A stretch of 41,971 bases of DNA from Acidimicrobiales bacterium. Lineage in GTDB: Bacteria > Actinomycetota > Acidimicrobiia > Acidimicrobiales > DASWMK01. Shown piece by piece: positions 1 through 9,923 of the stretch. The notes below the pieces were generated by a model, which saw nothing but the letters and a program-made list of their open reading frames with translations, made no database searches and was not told the DNA's origin. Positions within the stretch are counted from its first letter, which is position 1. The number at the start of each line of letters is the position of its first letter. A program made the position numbers and the translations under genes. The stretch lies in assembly GCA_036399815.1 (NCBI GenBank), contig DASWMK010000082.1, forward strand, positions 1 to 41,971, written 5' to 3'.

Positions 1-1350
1 CACCAGTCGCGGCGCGAGCGCCTGGATCTCCTTCAGGTACCGGCTGCGCCACCGGGCCATCGTCCCGTGCACGGTCGCCACCTCGGGGTGCACGAACGGC
101 GGCCGGACATCCATGTCGTGCCTCGGCCGCAACCCGAACTCCCGGACGCAGCGCTCGTGCACCTCGGTCCCCGGGTAGATGCGGACGGCGTTGAAGACGG
201 GGTCGGCGGGCAGGTAGCCGAGCAGCTCGGTGGCTCGCAGGAACTCGAGGTTCTCGGCCAGCTCGGCCGTCGTCGTCCACGGGTCGAACATGATGAAGTC
301 GAGGTCAAGGCGGATCCCGTTGGCCCGCAGCAGCTCGATGGCGGCGATGTTGTCGGCCACCGTCGTGCGCTTGCCCATGCGGGCGAGCACCGATTCGCTG
401 CCCGACTCGATGCCGATCTCGAGGAACGTGCACCGGGGCGCGATGGCGGCGATCACGTCGGGGTTCGCCCTGACCTTGTCGGCGGTCGCCGTGGAGGACC
501 ACGTCACGTCCGGGCGCCAGGCCGCGAGCGCGGCGTCGAAGGCCCGGACCCGGCCGGCGTGGACGAAGAAGTTGGCGTCGAGGATGCCGACGTGGCCGAA
601 CGGGGCGGCCCGGTCGAGCGCTCGCAGCTCGTCCATCACGTGGTCGACCGACCGGAACCGCCACCGGGGGTTCATGACGATGATCGAGCAGAACGTGCAC
701 CGCTTCGGGCAGCCGCGGCTCGTCGACACGAACGCGGACGGCGCCGGGCCGGCGGCTCGGCGCCACTCCGTCGTGTCCCTGACGGGCTCGACGACGAAGT
801 CGCGCGCCGGCGCAGGGAGGTCGTCGAGGGCGAGCGGCGGCGACAGCCCCGGGTTGCTGCGGACGCCGAGCACCGAGGTCCCGTGCGCCCGCCACGTGAG
901 CGACGGCACCGACGCCAGGTCCGGCGCGCCCGAGGCCAGCTCCTCGGCCAGCGCCAGCATGGGCGCCTCGCCGTCGTTGCGCACGACGACGTCGACGGCC
1001 GGCTCGGCGGCGAGGAGCTCGGTGGCGCACGGGGTGGCGTGCGGCCCGCCGAGCACGACCGTCGTGCCCGGTCGGCGGGCCTTCACCCAGCGGGCGACCT
1101 CGATCGCGCTCCGGATCGTCTTCGTGTAGGCCGTGATCCCGACGACGTCGTGGTCGAGCAGGCCCGTCGTGGCGACGTCGTCCAGCCGGTCGACGGCGCA
1201 GAGGTCGAACAGGTCACAGCGGACGCCCGCGGCGCGGAGGTAGGCGGCGATCGAGCACAGCCCGAGCGGCGGCGGCCCCTGCTCGGCGGGGTCCGCACCC
1301 CGCACCGGGTCGGGCGGGTTGACCAGCGCGACGGAGACCCGGGCGCTCAC
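1..1350 (-). CDS. B12-binding-type radical SAM protein (3' end outside window)
   Basis: The visible 450 codons start at GTG 1350 and stay open to the left edge. Residues ~1-140 look like a cobalamin-binding Rossmann domain, with NPPDP near the start, PPLGLCSIAAYLR at 27-39 and GGPHAT at 101-106. The radical SAM core follows with the cluster motif C214-x3-C218-x2-C221 (SRGCPKRCTFCS) and later GIESGS, the usual order in this superfamily. Such enzymes use a 4Fe-4S cluster and S-adenosylmethionine, often to methylate or rearrange unactivated carbons. The gene starts 42 bp after the stop of the repeat-bearing peptide gene on the same strand, so the two are probably cotranscribed and the peptide is a candidate substrate. 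I see no clear ribosome site before GTG 1350, so translational coupling or another start is possible. Family assignment is firm; substrate is inferred. Confidence 0.9.
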   Translation of the reverse strand, partial: MSARVSVALVNPPDPVRGADPAEQGPPPLGLCSIAAYLRAAGVRCDLFDLCAVDRLDDVATTGLLDHDVVGITAYTKTIRSAIEVARWVKARRPGTTVVLGGPHATPCATELLAAEPAVDVVVRNDGEAPMLALAEELASGAPDLASVPSLTWRAHGTSVLGVRSNPGLSPPLALDDLPAPARDFVVEPVRDTTEWRRAAGPAPSAFVSTSRGCPKRCTFCSIIVMNPRWRFRSVDHVMDELRALDRAAPFGHVGILDANFFVHAGRVRAFDAALAAWRPDVTWSSTATADKVRANPDVIAAIAPRCTFLEIGIESGSESVLARMGKRTTVADNIAAIELLRANGIRLDLDFIMFDPWTTTAELAENLEFLRATELLGYLPADPVFNAVRIYPGTEVHERCVREFGLRPRHDMDVRPPFVHPEVATVHGTMARWRSRYLKEIQALAPRLV

Positions 1351-1392
1351 GACGTGCGCTCGGCGGCTCGGCGGCCGACGGCCGGTCGGCGG

Positions 1393-1710
1393 CTACGCCT
1401 GGGCGGGCCCGGGTTCGTCGTCGGGCTCGTCGCGGATCGTCTTGCCGGTCGGCACGACGGGGTCGTCCACGATGCCCGGCTCCGGGGTCGTCGTGGGCGA
1501 CGGGTCCACGCTCGGCTGCGGGTCCACGCTCGGCTGCGGGTCGACCGGGTCGGTCGTCGGCGGCGTCGGGTCGACGGGGTCGGTCGTCGGCGGGGTCGAC
1601 GGCGTCGACGGCGTCGGGTCGTCGGGGTCGTCGGGCTCGTCGCGGATCGTCTTGCCGGTGGGGAGTACGGCGAGCTCGTCGAGCCCGGGCTCACCCTGCT
1701 GATCGGACAT
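1393..1710 (-). CDS. Short Pro/Asp/Thr-rich peptide with duplicated PTGKTIRDEPDD motif; candidate RiPP precursor
   Basis: A 105-residue protein starting at ATG 1710, preceded by a good ribosome site (AAGGGGG about 5 nt upstream). It has no Cys, no membrane segment and no signal peptide. The 12-residue motif PTGKTIRDEPDD occurs exactly twice, at residues 17-28 and 87-98. Between them is a low-complexity spacer with smaller repeats (TTDPVDP twice, QPSVDP twice). A short acidic leader (residues 1-16) comes before the first copy. The next gene downstream is a B12-binding-type radical SAM enzyme. A small protein with repeated cores next to a radical SAM gene is the usual look of a multicore RiPP precursor. 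The GC-rich codon use also opens long antisense frames here, but the SD site and exact repeat favour this strand. Function is inferred. Confidence 0.75.
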   Translation of the reverse strand: MSDQQGEPGLDELAVLPTGKTIRDEPDDPDDPTPSTPSTPPTTDPVDPTPPTTDPVDPQPSVDPQPSVDPSPTTTPEPGIVDDPVVPTGKTIRDEPDDEPGPAQA

Positions 1711-1836
1711 GTCCGCCCCCTTCGGTCGTCCCGGGCCGGGAGCGTAGCCGGTGCCTTCCGGGCCCGCAGGGGAGCGCGAGGGGTCGCCGCCCGTATGCTC
1801 TCGGTCAGCAGCGGCGTAACCGGGGGAGGGTGCGCG

Positions 1837-4800
1837 ATGAGGTCCCGCAGCGGGATCGTGGTGCTGGCCGTGCTGGGTCTGGTGGCGGCCACCGCGGGTG
1901 TGATCGGTCCGGCCCCGCCGGTGGCGGCCGCGGCGACGTCGGTGACCGTCGCCGGCAGCCTGCAGTCCGAGCTCGGGTGCGCCGGCGACTGGGACCCGGC
2001 CTGCGCGGCCACCGGGCTCACCCGTGAGGCGGACGACGGCGTCTGGCAGGCCACGTTCGCCGTCCCTGCCGGGAGCTGGGAGTACAAGGCCGCCCTGGAC
2101 GGGTCGTGGGCCGAGAACTACGGCGCGGGCGCCACCCGCGACGGGCCGAACATCCCCCTGGCGCTGTCCTCGGGCGAGTCGGTGAAGTTCTTCTTCGACG
2201 AGGCCACCCACTGGGTGACCGACGACGTCACCTCCGTGATCGCCACGGTCCCCGGCGACTTCCAGTCCGAGCTCGGGTGCGCGTCCGACTGGGACCCCGG
2301 CTGCCTGCGGTCGTGGCTCCAGGACCCCGACGGCGACGGGGTCGGGCGGTTCGCCACGAGCCTGCTCCCGCCCGGCTCGTACCAGGCCAAGGTCACCATC
2401 GGCGAGTCGTGGGCCGAGAACTACGGCGCCGGCGGCGTCCCCGACGGCGCCAACCTCACGTTCGACGTCGCCACGCCCGGCGACCTGGTCGAGTTCGTCT
2501 ACGACCAGGACTCCCACGTGCTCGACGTCGTCGTCACGCCGGCCGAACCGGTGGACGACGCCGCCCTCGTGCGCGAGCCGGTGCGCCACCCGTTCGAGGA
2601 CGAGGTCCTCTACTTCGCCATCCCGGACCGGTTCTTCGACGGCAACGGCGCCAACAACTGCGGTGACTACGCCGGCCCGTGCGTGGCCGGCGACTCGGAG
2701 GAGAACGTCCTCACCCACGGCTACCTGCCGTCGGACAAGGGCTACTACCACGGCGGCGACCTCGCCGGCCTCCGGCGGCGCCTGCCGTACCTCGACGACC
2801 TCGGGATCACCGCCATCTGGGTCGGCCCGATCTACGCCAACAAGCCCGTCCAGTCCGACACCACGAACCTCTACGGGCACTCCTCGGGCTACCACGGCTA
2901 CTGGATCGAGGACTTCCTGCGGGTCGACCCCCACCTCGGCACCAACGAGGAGTTCGCCGGCCTCGTCCGCGCCGCGCACCGGCGCGACATCAAGGTGTTC
3001 ATGGACATCGTCACCAACCACACGGCCGACGTCGTCCAGCTCGAGGGCCACACCGGCTACCGGAACACGTCGGCCTTCCCCTACACCGACGTCGCCGGCA
3101 CCCCCTTCGACGACCGCGACTACGCCTACGCCGGCCCGGGGAGCCCGCCGTTCCCCGCGGTCGACCTGACGTCGTTCCCGTACACGCCCGTCGTGCCGCC
3201 GGGGGAGGAGGACGTCAAGAGCCCGGCGTGGCTGAACGACCCGACGATGTACCACAACCGCGGCAACACCAGCTTCGTGGGCGAGAACTCGCTCTACGGC
3301 GACTTCTTCGGCCTCGACGACCTGTGGACCGAGCGCCGTGAGGTCGTCGAGGGGATGGTCGACATCTACTCCTACTGGATCAGGGAGTTCGGCGTCGACG
3401 GCTTCCGCATCGACACCACCAAGCACGTGAACATGGAGTTCTGGCAGGCGTTCGGCCCCGCCATCCTGGCCGCCGCCGAGGAGCGCGGCATCGGCGACTT
3501 CTTCGCCTTCGGCGAGGTGTACGACCAGGCCTTCGGCCCCCGGTTCACGAGCGAGTTCTCGACCCGCGGCCAGCTCCAGTCGACGATCGACTTCGGCTTC
3601 CAGCTGGCCGCCAGGGGCTTCGCCGCGCAGGGAGCCGGCACGGACCAGCTGCGGGACTTCTTCGCCCTCGACGACTGGTACACCGACACCGACAGCAACG
3701 CCTACGGGATGCCGACGTTCCTCGGCAACCACGACATGGGCCGCATCGGCTACTTCCTCCAGCGGGTCGACCAGGCGGGCGCGTCGGACGCCGAGCTGCT
3801 GGCCCGCTCGCAGCTGGCCCACGCGCTCATGTTCACGGCGCGCGGGTCGCCGGTCATCTACTACGGCGACGAGCAGGGCTTCACGGGCGACGGCGGGGAC
3901 AAGGACGCCCGCGAGGACATGTTCGCCAACGCCGTCCCGACGTACGCCGACAACGACCTGATCGGCACGGACGAGACGACGTCGGACGACAACTTCGACC
4001 GCACCCACCCGCTGTACCGGACGATCCGGGAGTGGTCCGAGCTGTACGCCGCCCACCCCGCCCTGCGGTCCGGCGCCCAGATCCACCGCTCCAGCAGCAC
4101 CGGTCCCGGCGTCTACGCGTTCTCCCGGATCGACCGCGACGAGCGGGTCGAGTACGTCGTCGCCCTGAACAACAGCGAGTCGCCGGCGTCGGCCGTGGTC
4201 GACACCTATTCCGCGCCGGGCGTGCGCTACCGGCTCGTGAACCGCTCGCTCGTCGCCCACTCCGTGGCCACGGTGGTGCCGACCGGCGCCGGCGGCCAGC
4301 TGTCGCTGACCGTGCCGCCCCTGTCGGCGGTCGTGTACCGGGCCGAGCGGGCGGTGGCGCCGAGCGCGGCTGCGCCCGGGGTCGAGATCACCTCGCTCGC
4401 CGACGGGCAGACCGTCCCGCTCGGGACGACGGCGATGGACGGCCACGACGTCGTCGACCGCGTCGAGGTCGCGGCCGAGCTGGACGCCGACGTGCTGGCC
4501 GAGGTCACGTTCGCCGTGAAGGTGGGCGACGGCGAGTTCGTCCCGATCGGCACCGACGACAATGCGCCGTACCGGGTGTTCTACGACGCCTCCGCCCTGC
4601 GCGACGCGCCGGCGCCGGTGACGTTCCGGGCCATCGTCAACGACCTGTCGGGCCACCTCGCCGCCGACCAGGTGGCCAACGTGCACGTCGAGTTCCCCGA
4701 CCCGTCGGGCCCCGACACGCCCTACGCCGTCATCCACTACCAGCGGCCGGCGGGCGACTACGGCGACCACACCGCGGGCAGCGACTTCTGGGGCCTGCAC

Positions 4801-5667
4801 CTGTGGGGCAACGGGATCCCCGCGTCCGAGGCGACGGACTGGACGGCGCCGAAGCCGTTCGTGGGCGAGGACGAGTACGGCCGCTTCGCCTTCGTGGCCC
4901 TGACCGACGACACCGTGCCGCTCAACTTCATCGTGCACGACGGGGACACCAAGGACCCGGCCGGGAGCCCGGACCGCTCGTTCGTCCCTGCGACCACGCC
5001 GGAGATCTGGCTGCGCCAGGGCGACGTCGCCGTGTACACGTCGAGGGCGGCGGCCGAGGGCCACGCCCTCGTCCACTACGGCTGCGGGACGGCCTGTTCC
5101 GGGGTCGCCCTCGACGGGTCGCCGCCGACCGCGGTCGACGACTACGGGGCGGTGTGGCACCGGGCGCTGACCGGCGGCGACCCCGCCGCGCCGCTCACGG
5201 TGACGATCACCGACGGCGCGTCCACCGTCGTGGACGGCGCCACGTTCACGCCCGCCGACGTGCCGTCGGCATGGTTCGAGCCGGGCGACGAGACCGTGCA
5301 CCCGTCCCGGGCCGCCGCCGAGGACGTGGCGATCATCCACTACCGCCGGCCGGCGGGCGACTACGGCGACCCCGGCAGCTCGAACTACAACGACTTCTGG
5401 GGCCTGCACGTGTGGACCGGCGCGGCGTCCGAGCCGCCGTGGACCGACCCGGTCAGGCCGGCAGGGTCGGACACGTTCGGCGCGGTGTTCCGCGTCCCCC
5501 TCGTCGACGGCGCCGACCAGCTGGCGTACCTCCTGCACCGAGGCGACACCAAGGACCCCGGCCCCGACCAGTTCCTCGTGTTCTCCCAGTACGGCCACGA
5601 GGTCTGGCAGCTCCAGGCCGCCGACCCCGAACGCCCCTACGTCGCCCCACCCCGCCCGTCCGGCTGA
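1837..5667 (+). CDS. Secreted GH13 alpha-amylase/pullulanase-like enzyme with X25-like and PUD/CBM41-like modules
   Basis: A 1276-residue protein from ATG 1837, with GGGGGAGGG just upstream; an in-frame extension upstream is non-coding. Residues 1-33 form a signal peptide ending near AAAAT. Two X25/BaPul-like beta modules follow (about 35-130 and 133-235), both with SELGC, DWDP and SWAENYGAG. The GH13 barrel starts near 255 (YFAIPDRFFDGN). It carries the nucleophile D526 (GFRIDTT), acid/base E560 (FGEVYD), third Asp D633 (LGNHD) and DIVTNHT. A C-terminal beta domain is followed by pullulanase-associated/CBM41-like modules, two with HYxRPAGDYGD, WGLHxW and HxGDTKDP, and a degenerate one between. 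The enzyme should cleave alpha-glucans outside the cell. Whether it acts on alpha-1,4 or alpha-1,6 bonds cannot be read from this. It is divergent from the peptide gene, with a 126-bp shared upstream region. Confidence 0.93.
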   Translation: MRSRSGIVVLAVLGLVAATAGVIGPAPPVAAAATSVTVAGSLQSELGCAGDWDPACAATGLTREADDGVWQATFAVPAGSWEYKAALDGSWAENYGAGATRDGPNIPLALSSGESVKFFFDEATHWVTDDVTSVIATVPGDFQSELGCASDWDPGCLRSWLQDPDGDGVGRFATSLLPPGSYQAKVTIGESWAENYGAGGVPDGANLTFDVATPGDLVEFVYDQDSHVLDVVVTPAEPVDDAALVREPVRHPFEDEVLYFAIPDRFFDGNGANNCGDYAGPCVAGDSEENVLTHGYLPSDKGYYHGGDLAGLRRRLPYLDDLGITAIWVGPIYANKPVQSDTTNLYGHSSGYHGYWIEDFLRVDPHLGTNEEFAGLVRAAHRRDIKVFMDIVTNHTADVVQLEGHTGYRNTSAFPYTDVAGTPFDDRDYAYAGPGSPPFPAVDLTSFPYTPVVPPGEEDVKSPAWLNDPTMYHNRGNTSFVGENSLYGDFFGLDDLWTERREVVEGMVDIYSYWIREFGVDGFRIDTTKHVNMEFWQAFGPAILAAAEERGIGDFFAFGEVYDQAFGPRFTSEFSTRGQLQSTIDFGFQLAARGFAAQGAGTDQLRDFFALDDWYTDTDSNAYGMPTFLGNHDMGRIGYFLQRVDQAGASDAELLARSQLAHALMFTARGSPVIYYGDEQGFTGDGGDKDAREDMFANAVPTYADNDLIGTDETTSDDNFDRTHPLYRTIREWSELYAAHPALRSGAQIHRSSSTGPGVYAFSRIDRDERVEYVVALNNSESPASAVVDTYSAPGVRYRLVNRSLVAHSVATVVPTGAGGQLSLTVPPLSAVVYRAERAVAPSAAAPGVEITSLADGQTVPLGTTAMDGHDVVDRVEVAAELDADVLAEVTFAVKVGDGEFVPIGTDDNAPYRVFYDASALRDAPAPVTFRAIVNDLSGHLAADQVANVHVEFPDPSGPDTPYAVIHYQRPAGDYGDHTAGSDFWGLHLWGNGIPASEATDWTAPKPFVGEDEYGRFAFVALTDDTVPLNFIVHDGDTKDPAGSPDRSFVPATTPEIWLRQGDVAVYTSRAAAEGHALVHYGCGTACSGVALDGSPPTAVDDYGAVWHRALTGGDPAAPLTVTITDGASTVVDGATFTPADVPSAWFEPGDETVHPSRAAAEDVAIIHYRRPAGDYGDPGSSNYNDFWGLHVWTGAASEPPWTDPVRPAGSDTFGAVFRVPLVDGADQLAYLLHRGDTKDPGPDQFLVFSQYGHEVWQLQAADPERPYVAPPRPSG

Positions 5668-8435: not shown

Positions 8436-9923
8436 TCAGGCGATCCGGTCGAGGCCGTGGCCGGCGACGCGAATGAGGTCCGGCATCGTGAAGTCGCCGT
8501 CCTCGCCGAGGAACGGCCGCCACGACGGGTCGTTGCGGAGGTACGACGACGGGTCCTTCTCGAGAAGACCGAGGAACACCTCTGCGACGATCCGGCCGCC
8601 GACCGGCCCGAGGCTCCGCCCGTCGGCTCGGACCTCGGCCTCCTTCAGCACGTAGTACCAGAGCGGCGCCGGGCCGCCTCCGGGCAGTCCGAGCTCCTCG
8701 TCCGTCAGCACCGAGGCACCCATGTGGGCGGCGACGTCCTGACCCGACGGGAGAGCGAGGCGGGCGCCGCGTGTCAGGTTCCGCAGGATCAGCGAGGGAG
8801 TGGTCCCGCCGATCTCCGGGGGGAGCTCGACGAGCGGCGCCGCGAGCTTGGTATCGATGGACCGGCTCAGCTGCCGCTCGTCCTTGCCCGCTCCATCGAC
8901 CTCGAAGAACCGTGCCCACTCGATCGTCCACCTGGGCGGAAGGATCCGGAATCCGGCGAAGTGCGTCTGTGGCGCCTCGTCGATCGGGTCCTTCGTGAAG
9001 ACCGGCAACGCACCGACGAACGTGTTCAGTCGGTACCGGGCGCGAACCTGGGAGTGCCCGAACCGGTACGCGGCGACGGAGAACTCGACGGGGATGTACG
9101 GGTCGTTGCGCCACACGTAGAACTTCCGGCGGACCTTGGCCCCGTCCGGCGCGGCATCGTCGAGGACACGGCCGAGCGTGTCCTCGCCGACCGTCCTGCG
9201 GAGGAAGTCGTGGACGACGAGCCACTGGTAGTGCCACCGAACGATCCGCTGCGCGGTCTCGAAGACGGTCTCGCTGCCTCGGCGGAGCGTCCGGTCGCTC
9301 TCGACCTTCTCGACGACGGCGTTGTGGAACTTGAGCATCGTCAGGTGGAGCTGGGAGACGAAGATGTTCTCGTCGTTGCGCGGGTCGCCGATGAGCGCCA
9401 CCTGCTGGTGGTTGCGGGGCAGGTCGTCCTCGTCGTCGTGGCGCTGGACGAGCATCCTCTGGCGACCCCTCGTGTCGTCGTAGAGGAAGGGGTCGTCAGC
9501 GGGGCCGCGCCCGTACAGGGAGTCAAGGTCGAATCGCGGGCTCCGGAAGTTGACGAGCGCTTCCGGGTCGTTCTGCCGGTCCAGGCTCGAGACGGGGTCG
9601 AAGGTCACGTCATGGTCGATGAACTGCCCGAGGTAGGTGTATCCGGCAGGGATCGTCGGGTTGTCGGCGGACGGGTTCGGGCCCGCGTCCACCATCAGAT
9701 CGGCGATCTCCCTGATCCGGCCGTCGCTCGGGATGAACGGGGGCAGGCGGAACATCCGGCCGAAGCGGCCCTCGTGCAGCCTGGACAGCGGCACGTGGAC
9801 AAGGCCCCGGAGCTCGGCGCCATGGCCTCGCGCCGGGCGGCCACGGCGCCCGTCGGCCTCGGGCATCGTCGACATCGCCACCAGCATCTCGGTCGTGCGC
9901 GGGGAACGGCTTCCAACGGTCAT
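8436..9923 (-). CDS. Animal-type (peroxidasin/cyclooxygenase superfamily) haem peroxidase
   Basis: A 495-residue protein from ATG 9923, with GGAGGG 9 nt upstream. Hallmarks of the animal haem peroxidase superfamily are present: GQFIDHDVTFD with distal His H104, DLDSLYG, the region DPRNDENIFVSQLHLTMLKF followed by HNAVV, and AYRFGHSQV with H290 in the position of the proximal haem ligand. No signal peptide is visible, so it is probably cytoplasmic or membrane-associated through its partner. These enzymes use peroxide to oxidise halides, phenols or lipids; the substrate cannot be told here. The length is normal for the short bacterial members. The next gene, 8 bp on, codes for the interrupted membrane protein, which may anchor it. 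Family call is firm; role is not. Confidence 0.92.
   Translation of the reverse strand: MTVGSRSPRTTEMLVAMSTMPEADGRRGRPARGHGAELRGLVHVPLSRLHEGRFGRMFRLPPFIPSDGRIREIADLMVDAGPNPSADNPTIPAGYTYLGQFIDHDVTFDPVSSLDRQNDPEALVNFRSPRFDLDSLYGRGPADDPFLYDDTRGRQRMLVQRHDDEDDLPRNHQQVALIGDPRNDENIFVSQLHLTMLKFHNAVVEKVESDRTLRRGSETVFETAQRIVRWHYQWLVVHDFLRRTVGEDTLGRVLDDAAPDGAKVRRKFYVWRNDPYIPVEFSVAAYRFGHSQVRARYRLNTFVGALPVFTKDPIDEAPQTHFAGFRILPPRWTIEWARFFEVDGAGKDERQLSRSIDTKLAAPLVELPPEIGGTTPSLILRNLTRGARLALPSGQDVAAHMGASVLTDEELGLPGGGPAPLWYYVLKEAEVRADGRSLGPVGGRIVAEVFLGLLEKDPSSYLRNDPSWRPFLGEDGDFTMPDLIRVAGHGLDRIA

Follow-up and report, generated by a model that had tools for sequence, protein, structure and literature searches.

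Results

The left end of the window, by which we mean the whole 41,971-nucleotide stretch analyzed, probably carries the 5' part of the gene cluster of an undescribed RiPP family, in which a 105-residue peptide would be the precursor and its T-x-R-D motif the core modified by a PqqD-guided enzyme set. The window is an entire contig (C82) of an Acidimicrobiales genome assembled in 287 contigs, and the remainder of the cluster would lie on a second contig, C3. The genes, their order and domains, their co-occurrence in three genomes and the recurrence of the motif were observed directly.

Peptide and radical SAM gene of the window

The features identified at the left end of the window are summarized in Table 1. 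The GC content of the peptide frame at codon positions 1, 2 and 3 (0.74/0.56/0.96) resembles that of the neighboring radical SAM gene (0.71/0.52/0.98), and AAGGGGG stands immediately 5' of the ATG, so that the frame is a real coding sequence. We recovered the two exact copies of PTGKTIRDEPDD and the low-complexity linker between them that had been reported from a sequence-only reading, as well as the adjoining B12-type radical SAM gene, which begins 42 bp past the stop codon of the peptide, matches both B12-binding and radical SAM domain models, and is cut off by the contig end at base 1. In DNA the two motif copies are identical at 35 of 36 positions; the duplication could thus be a DNA-level event and is alone no proof of selection. 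Given near-identical copies and a linker built of tandem repeats, the duplication by itself is weak evidence of function.

Table 1. Candidate precursor gene and radical SAM gene at the left end of the window.
Feature	Position	Strand	Details
Candidate precursor peptide, 105 aa	1393..1710	-	ATG start, TAG stop; no Pfam or NCBIfam match
Motif copy 1, PTGKTIRDEPDD, residues 17-28	1627..1662	-	sequence
Motif copy 2, PTGKTIRDEPDD, residues 87-98	1417..1452	-	sequence
Low-complexity Pro/Asp/Thr linker between motif copies; tandem repeats of 18 and 30 bp	1453..1626	-	
AAGGGGG, probable ribosome binding site of peptide gene	1716..1722	-	read from sequence
B12-binding radical SAM enzyme 1, 450 aa in window, C-terminus lost at contig end	1..1350	-	
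B12-binding domain, residues 26-134	949..1275	-	PF02310, E 5.5e-21
Radical SAM domain, residues 208-370	241..729	-	PF04055, E 7.5e-19
CPKRCTFC motif within radical SAM domain	688-711	-	

Probable remainder of the cluster on a second contig

The radical SAM family has exactly two members in this genome, one on C82 and one on C3, which are 44% identical. The first 74 codons of contig C3 belong to an interrupted gene and encode an orphan radical SAM C-terminal tail that matches the C-terminal region of radical SAM 2 (QRGRSLSVRLRHLPYRLVEELL compared with QRASVLAVRLRHLPYRLLDAAL). The tail is followed by a PqqD-type RiPP recognition element (PF05402, E 1.7e-8), the B12-dependent radical SAM 2, a JmjC protein (JmjC_2, PF08007, E 8.4e-11) and a GNAT acetyltransferase (E 1.8e-11), closely packed with three of the four junctions overlapping by 4 bp. 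Since the two contig ends break in complementary parts of a two-member family, and since the gene order in a Polyangiaceae genome (see below) agrees, we infer that the left ends of C82 and C3 join within the radical SAM 1 gene. Fusing the two ends directly would break the reading frame, so that some bases must be missing between the contigs.

Related clusters in other genomes

Both radical SAM proteins were scanned against 84,980 species genomes in a single scan, which returned two close loci, one in a Polyangiaceae metagenome-assembled genome and one in Caenimonas koreensis. The Polyangiaceae cluster consists of the peptide, a radical SAM 1-PqqD fusion, radical SAM 2 and JmjC, followed by GNAT on the opposite strand; it spans two contigs, connected through an exact overlap of 87 bp, with JmjC and GNAT on the second. 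In C. koreensis the order is PqqD, a single radical SAM, GNAT, a reverse-strand gene, the peptide at L015:10864-11118 and JmjC, so two B12-dependent radical SAM enzymes are found in two of the three genomes. A small tree places the Caenimonas enzyme together with both radical SAM 2 proteins (support 91/99), its deeper forks not being settled. Across the three genomes, identities are 41-54% for the radical SAM proteins, 36-41% for JmjC, about 30% for GNAT and 25-35% for PqqD. A PqqD domain (PF05402) is present in all three clusters with E values of 1.7e-8, 2.2e-6 and 1e-8, the window genome's copy being the one on C3, with inferred linkage, and a peptide reading frame adjoins the enzymes in each genome.

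About 1900 further genomes, representing the class and phylum of the window's genome, Burkholderiales, Myxococcota, Polyangiaceae, Pseudomonadota and the genus Caenimonas, many of them near relatives of one of the three, added no family member except one distant enzyme of about 33% identity, in searches whose first look was confined, for most of these genomes, to a few scored candidates each. No relatives were found in viral contigs. With close members in three genomes only, the cluster is rare and scattered, and its rarity and spread across three distant lineages suggest horizontal transfer. Most RiPPs need a leader protease and an exporter, although not every RiPP cluster encodes them; the neighboring genes that we examined include neither, and both may be encoded elsewhere.

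Several other candidates were set aside. The radical SAM enzymes of two plasmid clusters are about 31% identical: in Burkholderia the accompanying peptide lacks the motif, and in Solidesulfovibrio the annotation shows no RiPP-like peptide next to the enzyme. Cupin matches in Sphingobium had no adjoining radical SAM gene, and the radical SAM protein of locus L017 was only distantly related. As separate observations, the Burkholderia stagnalis plasmid (L013:7723-11479) encodes a 55-residue peptide, MAINLMAPKGNDQNVKLSTEIWKKLNEVKTAKLQETAQHAQADQAGDVEVRKDGE, without the TxRD motif amid three radical SAM genes, and the Solidesulfovibrio carbinolicus plasmid (L012:4890-9398) carries three radical SAM genes in a row after a sugar-nucleotide operon. 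Another uncharacterized RiPP-like cluster was observed in Polyangiaceae genome G1537 (L039:5139-10994), where a distant relative of the radical SAM enzyme is accompanied by a 59-residue peptide (L039:7770-7949, minus strand) as well as by a multinuclear iron oxidase (PF05114, E 7e-17), a cupin/JmjC protein and a GNAT.

Recurrence of the T-x-R-D motif

The three peptides share the pattern T-x-R-D-x-x-(P)D, as PTGKTIRDEPDD, IPGSTYRDNPDD and ALSKTNRDQQPD, of which the third forms the extreme C-terminus of its peptide, and have otherwise little similarity; their leaders are not recognizably similar. The segment shared across genomes is the same one that is duplicated in the window peptide. Outside the three peptides, the expression [GS]-x-T-x-R-D-x-x-(P)D, written after the motif had been seen, had no match in six frames of about 30 loci. 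In shuffle tests, the window/Polyangiaceae match was equaled in 4 of 1000 shuffles, Polyangiaceae/Caenimonas in 18 of 1000 and the three-way match in 7 of 300; window/Caenimonas (101 of 1000) was not significant alone. Conservation of the T-x-R-D motif in all three clusters thus appears moderately supported by the shuffles, and this support is strengthened by the position of the peptides beside homologous enzymes and by the coincidence with the duplicated segment.

It had been suggested from the sequence that the duplicated motif, with its Lys, Thr, Arg and Asp, could be the modified core of a RiPP-like precursor. In favor of a core, the key residues T, R and D are constant and recur in peptides of two unrelated genomes with the same enzyme set, and the PqqD-type recognition element within that set speaks for a RiPP-like precursor. 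The limits are that the lysine varies, that the motif is duplicated in the window peptide only, with one copy in each of the other two genomes, and that the shuffle support is moderate. Taken together, the same enzyme set and a similar motif in two very distantly related bacteria make it appear that the cluster encodes a small protein and chemically alters a short repeated motif within it.

None of the three peptides is covered by a Pfam or NCBIfam model, and the papers searched described neither this motif nor this combination of genes. Among 59 related genomes the motif was found in the window only, and searches of relatives for peptide homologues gave weak low-complexity matches alone. The sole IMG/VR motif match (L006) was an unrelated endonuclease-like repeat protein.

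Radical SAM and JmjC enzymes

The radical SAM proteins of the clusters combine a B12-binding domain with a radical SAM domain containing CxxxCxxC. A structure model of radical SAM 1 (mean pLDDT 65) resembles OxsB, TsrM, MgmA, TokK and CysS; methyltransferases make up most of the matches, with OxsB and AprD4 besides. None of the cluster enzymes scanned reached the cut-off of a named radical SAM family model. Scores were 91.7, 96.9, 75.7 and 104.7 bits for ApyD (NF050148, cut-off 750 bits), 105-128 bits for BchE (TIGR02026, cut-off 481 bits) and 96-114 bits for the CUAEP-tail proteins (NF040546, cut-off 500 bits). The oxidative cyclase BchE was the top-scoring named family for three of the four enzymes.

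JmjC matched PF08007 above cut-off in all three clusters, with the HxD...H residues H139, D141 and H208 invariant, as in 2-oxoglutarate oxygenases. The best structure matches of its profile include the ribosomal protein L16 arginine hydroxylase (E about 2e-18); a structure predicted from the single sequence (pLDDT 34) was set aside. Because of this match and the invariant metal-binding residues, hydroxylation of the conserved Arg is our first guess, with hydroxylation of Asp as an alternative.

Proposed pathway and alternatives

From the observed features we infer that the peptide is the substrate, and the chemical steps that follow are proposed on the same basis. The PqqD domain is the usual leader-binding module of RiPP pathways, and here it would bring the precursor to the two B12-dependent radical SAM enzymes, the T-x-R-D motif being the core that receives the modification. 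These enzymes would most likely methylate unactivated carbons of the core; carbon methylation is favored and biaryl coupling unlikely because the core has no conserved aromatic residue. The JmjC oxygenase would most likely hydroxylate the core arginine, and the GNAT may acetylate the product or its free amine, or confer self-protection. A more far-reaching version, which we consider doubtful, is a new RiPP class whose minimal, non-aromatic T-x-R-D core is carbon-methylated twice, hydroxylated at Arg and acetylated, giving a small Arg- or Asp-centered product kept in the cell as a cofactor or metal ligand, like PQQ or mycofactocin. An intracellular product, if true, would explain the absent exporter and protease.

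Three other explanations were weighed. The cluster could be real and conserved while its RiPP core is cross-linked or rearranged, through C-C or C-O bonds or a BchE-like oxidation via Thr, Asp or Arg. We regard this as unlikely: known B12-dependent radical SAM enzymes do include cross-linkers (BipD/PbsB), and BchE gave the best named-family score for most of the enzymes, but those scores lie far under the cut-off, the structure matches point mainly to methyltransferases, and the lack of a conserved aromatic residue makes biphenomycin-like biaryl coupling improbable on sequence. It seems quite improbable that the peptide is an unrelated low-complexity protein in which DNA repeat expansion doubled the motif, the true substrate of the enzymes being a small molecule or some larger protein. 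The near-identical DNA of the copies, the tandem repeats of the linker and the weakness of two pairwise motif matches would agree with such an origin, whereas the PqqD domain of all three clusters, the short peptides found in corresponding places in two of these, and the recurrence of T-x-R-D at the right place in all three argue against it.

Finally, C82 and C3 may not be neighbors, in which case the window would hold a peptide and one radical SAM gene, and C3 a separate cluster. In favor of this, the two contig ends share no sequence overlap; yet both cut complementary parts of a radical SAM gene in a genome with only two members of the family, and the Polyangiaceae gene order predicts the join, which makes separate clusters very improbable.

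Comparison with known pathways

We regard the cluster as a candidate new RiPP family, with the biphenomycin and aminopyruvatide pathways as its closest relatives, and not as a new principle. The biphenomycin pathway (bip/pbs) likewise pairs a B12-dependent radical SAM enzyme, BipD/PbsB, with a JmjC/cupin hydroxylase, BipG/PbsQ (PMC12707348; PMC12257519), BipG being a JmjC hydroxylase alongside a B12-dependent radical SAM enzyme in a RiPP pathway (PMC12707348). Its JmjC oxygenase hydroxylates ornithine made from a core arginine (PMC12707348; PMC12257519). It differs in using a multinuclear iron oxidase, an arginase and an F-R-F core; we found no F-x-R-F core in the three peptides, and no multinuclear iron oxidase or arginase among the genes identified in the subset of reading frames scanned. 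The present clusters have instead two B12-dependent radical SAM enzymes in two of the three genomes, a PqqD domain, a GNAT and a T-x-R-D core.

ApyD of the aminopyruvatide pathway is an RRE-containing B12-dependent radical SAM enzyme that methylates an sp3 carbon of a RiPP precursor (PMC10635010). The cluster enzymes are similar to it in sequence (E about 1e-21 to 1e-30), and a fusion of this kind to a recognition element also occurs in the Polyangiaceae enzyme, but scores of 76-105 bits against a cut-off of 750 separate them from ApyD proper. In contrast to that pathway, no P450 or multinuclear iron oxidase is seen, and the core has no tyrosines except at one variable position. The solved structures most closely related to the JmjC protein include the YcfD/RoxA arginine hydroxylases of ribosomal protein L16 (4ccl, 4lit and 4csw), and HxD...H is common to all three copies of the JmjC protein; it is shorter (about 300 residues), and its gene adjoins that of a RiPP-like peptide, whereas those hydroxylases act on the ribosome. 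A 2025 survey of recognition elements notes RiPP-like contexts for bacterial homologues of JmjC (PMC12710340).

Few RiPP pathways unite a B12-dependent radical SAM enzyme with a JmjC oxygenase, and the examples that the literature search gave modify aromatic cores. Without a conserved aromatic residue in the shared motif, the present enzymes would need to functionalize carbons of Thr, Arg, Asp or Pro. The cluster is compact and present in a cultured strain, C. koreensis DSM 17982, and is open to direct testing by co-expression.

Neighboring genes

At the end of the Caenimonas cluster, a TonB-dependent receptor gene lies tail-to-tail with it (L015:12017-14077); if the receptor is part of the cluster, a metal-binding product is worth considering. 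In the window, a secreted pullulanase-like alpha-amylase with X25 and PUD domains (1837-5667) is encoded upstream of and divergent from the peptide gene, outside the cluster, and positions 8436-9923 encode a protein with an animal-type haem peroxidase domain (PF03098, E 1.9e-19).
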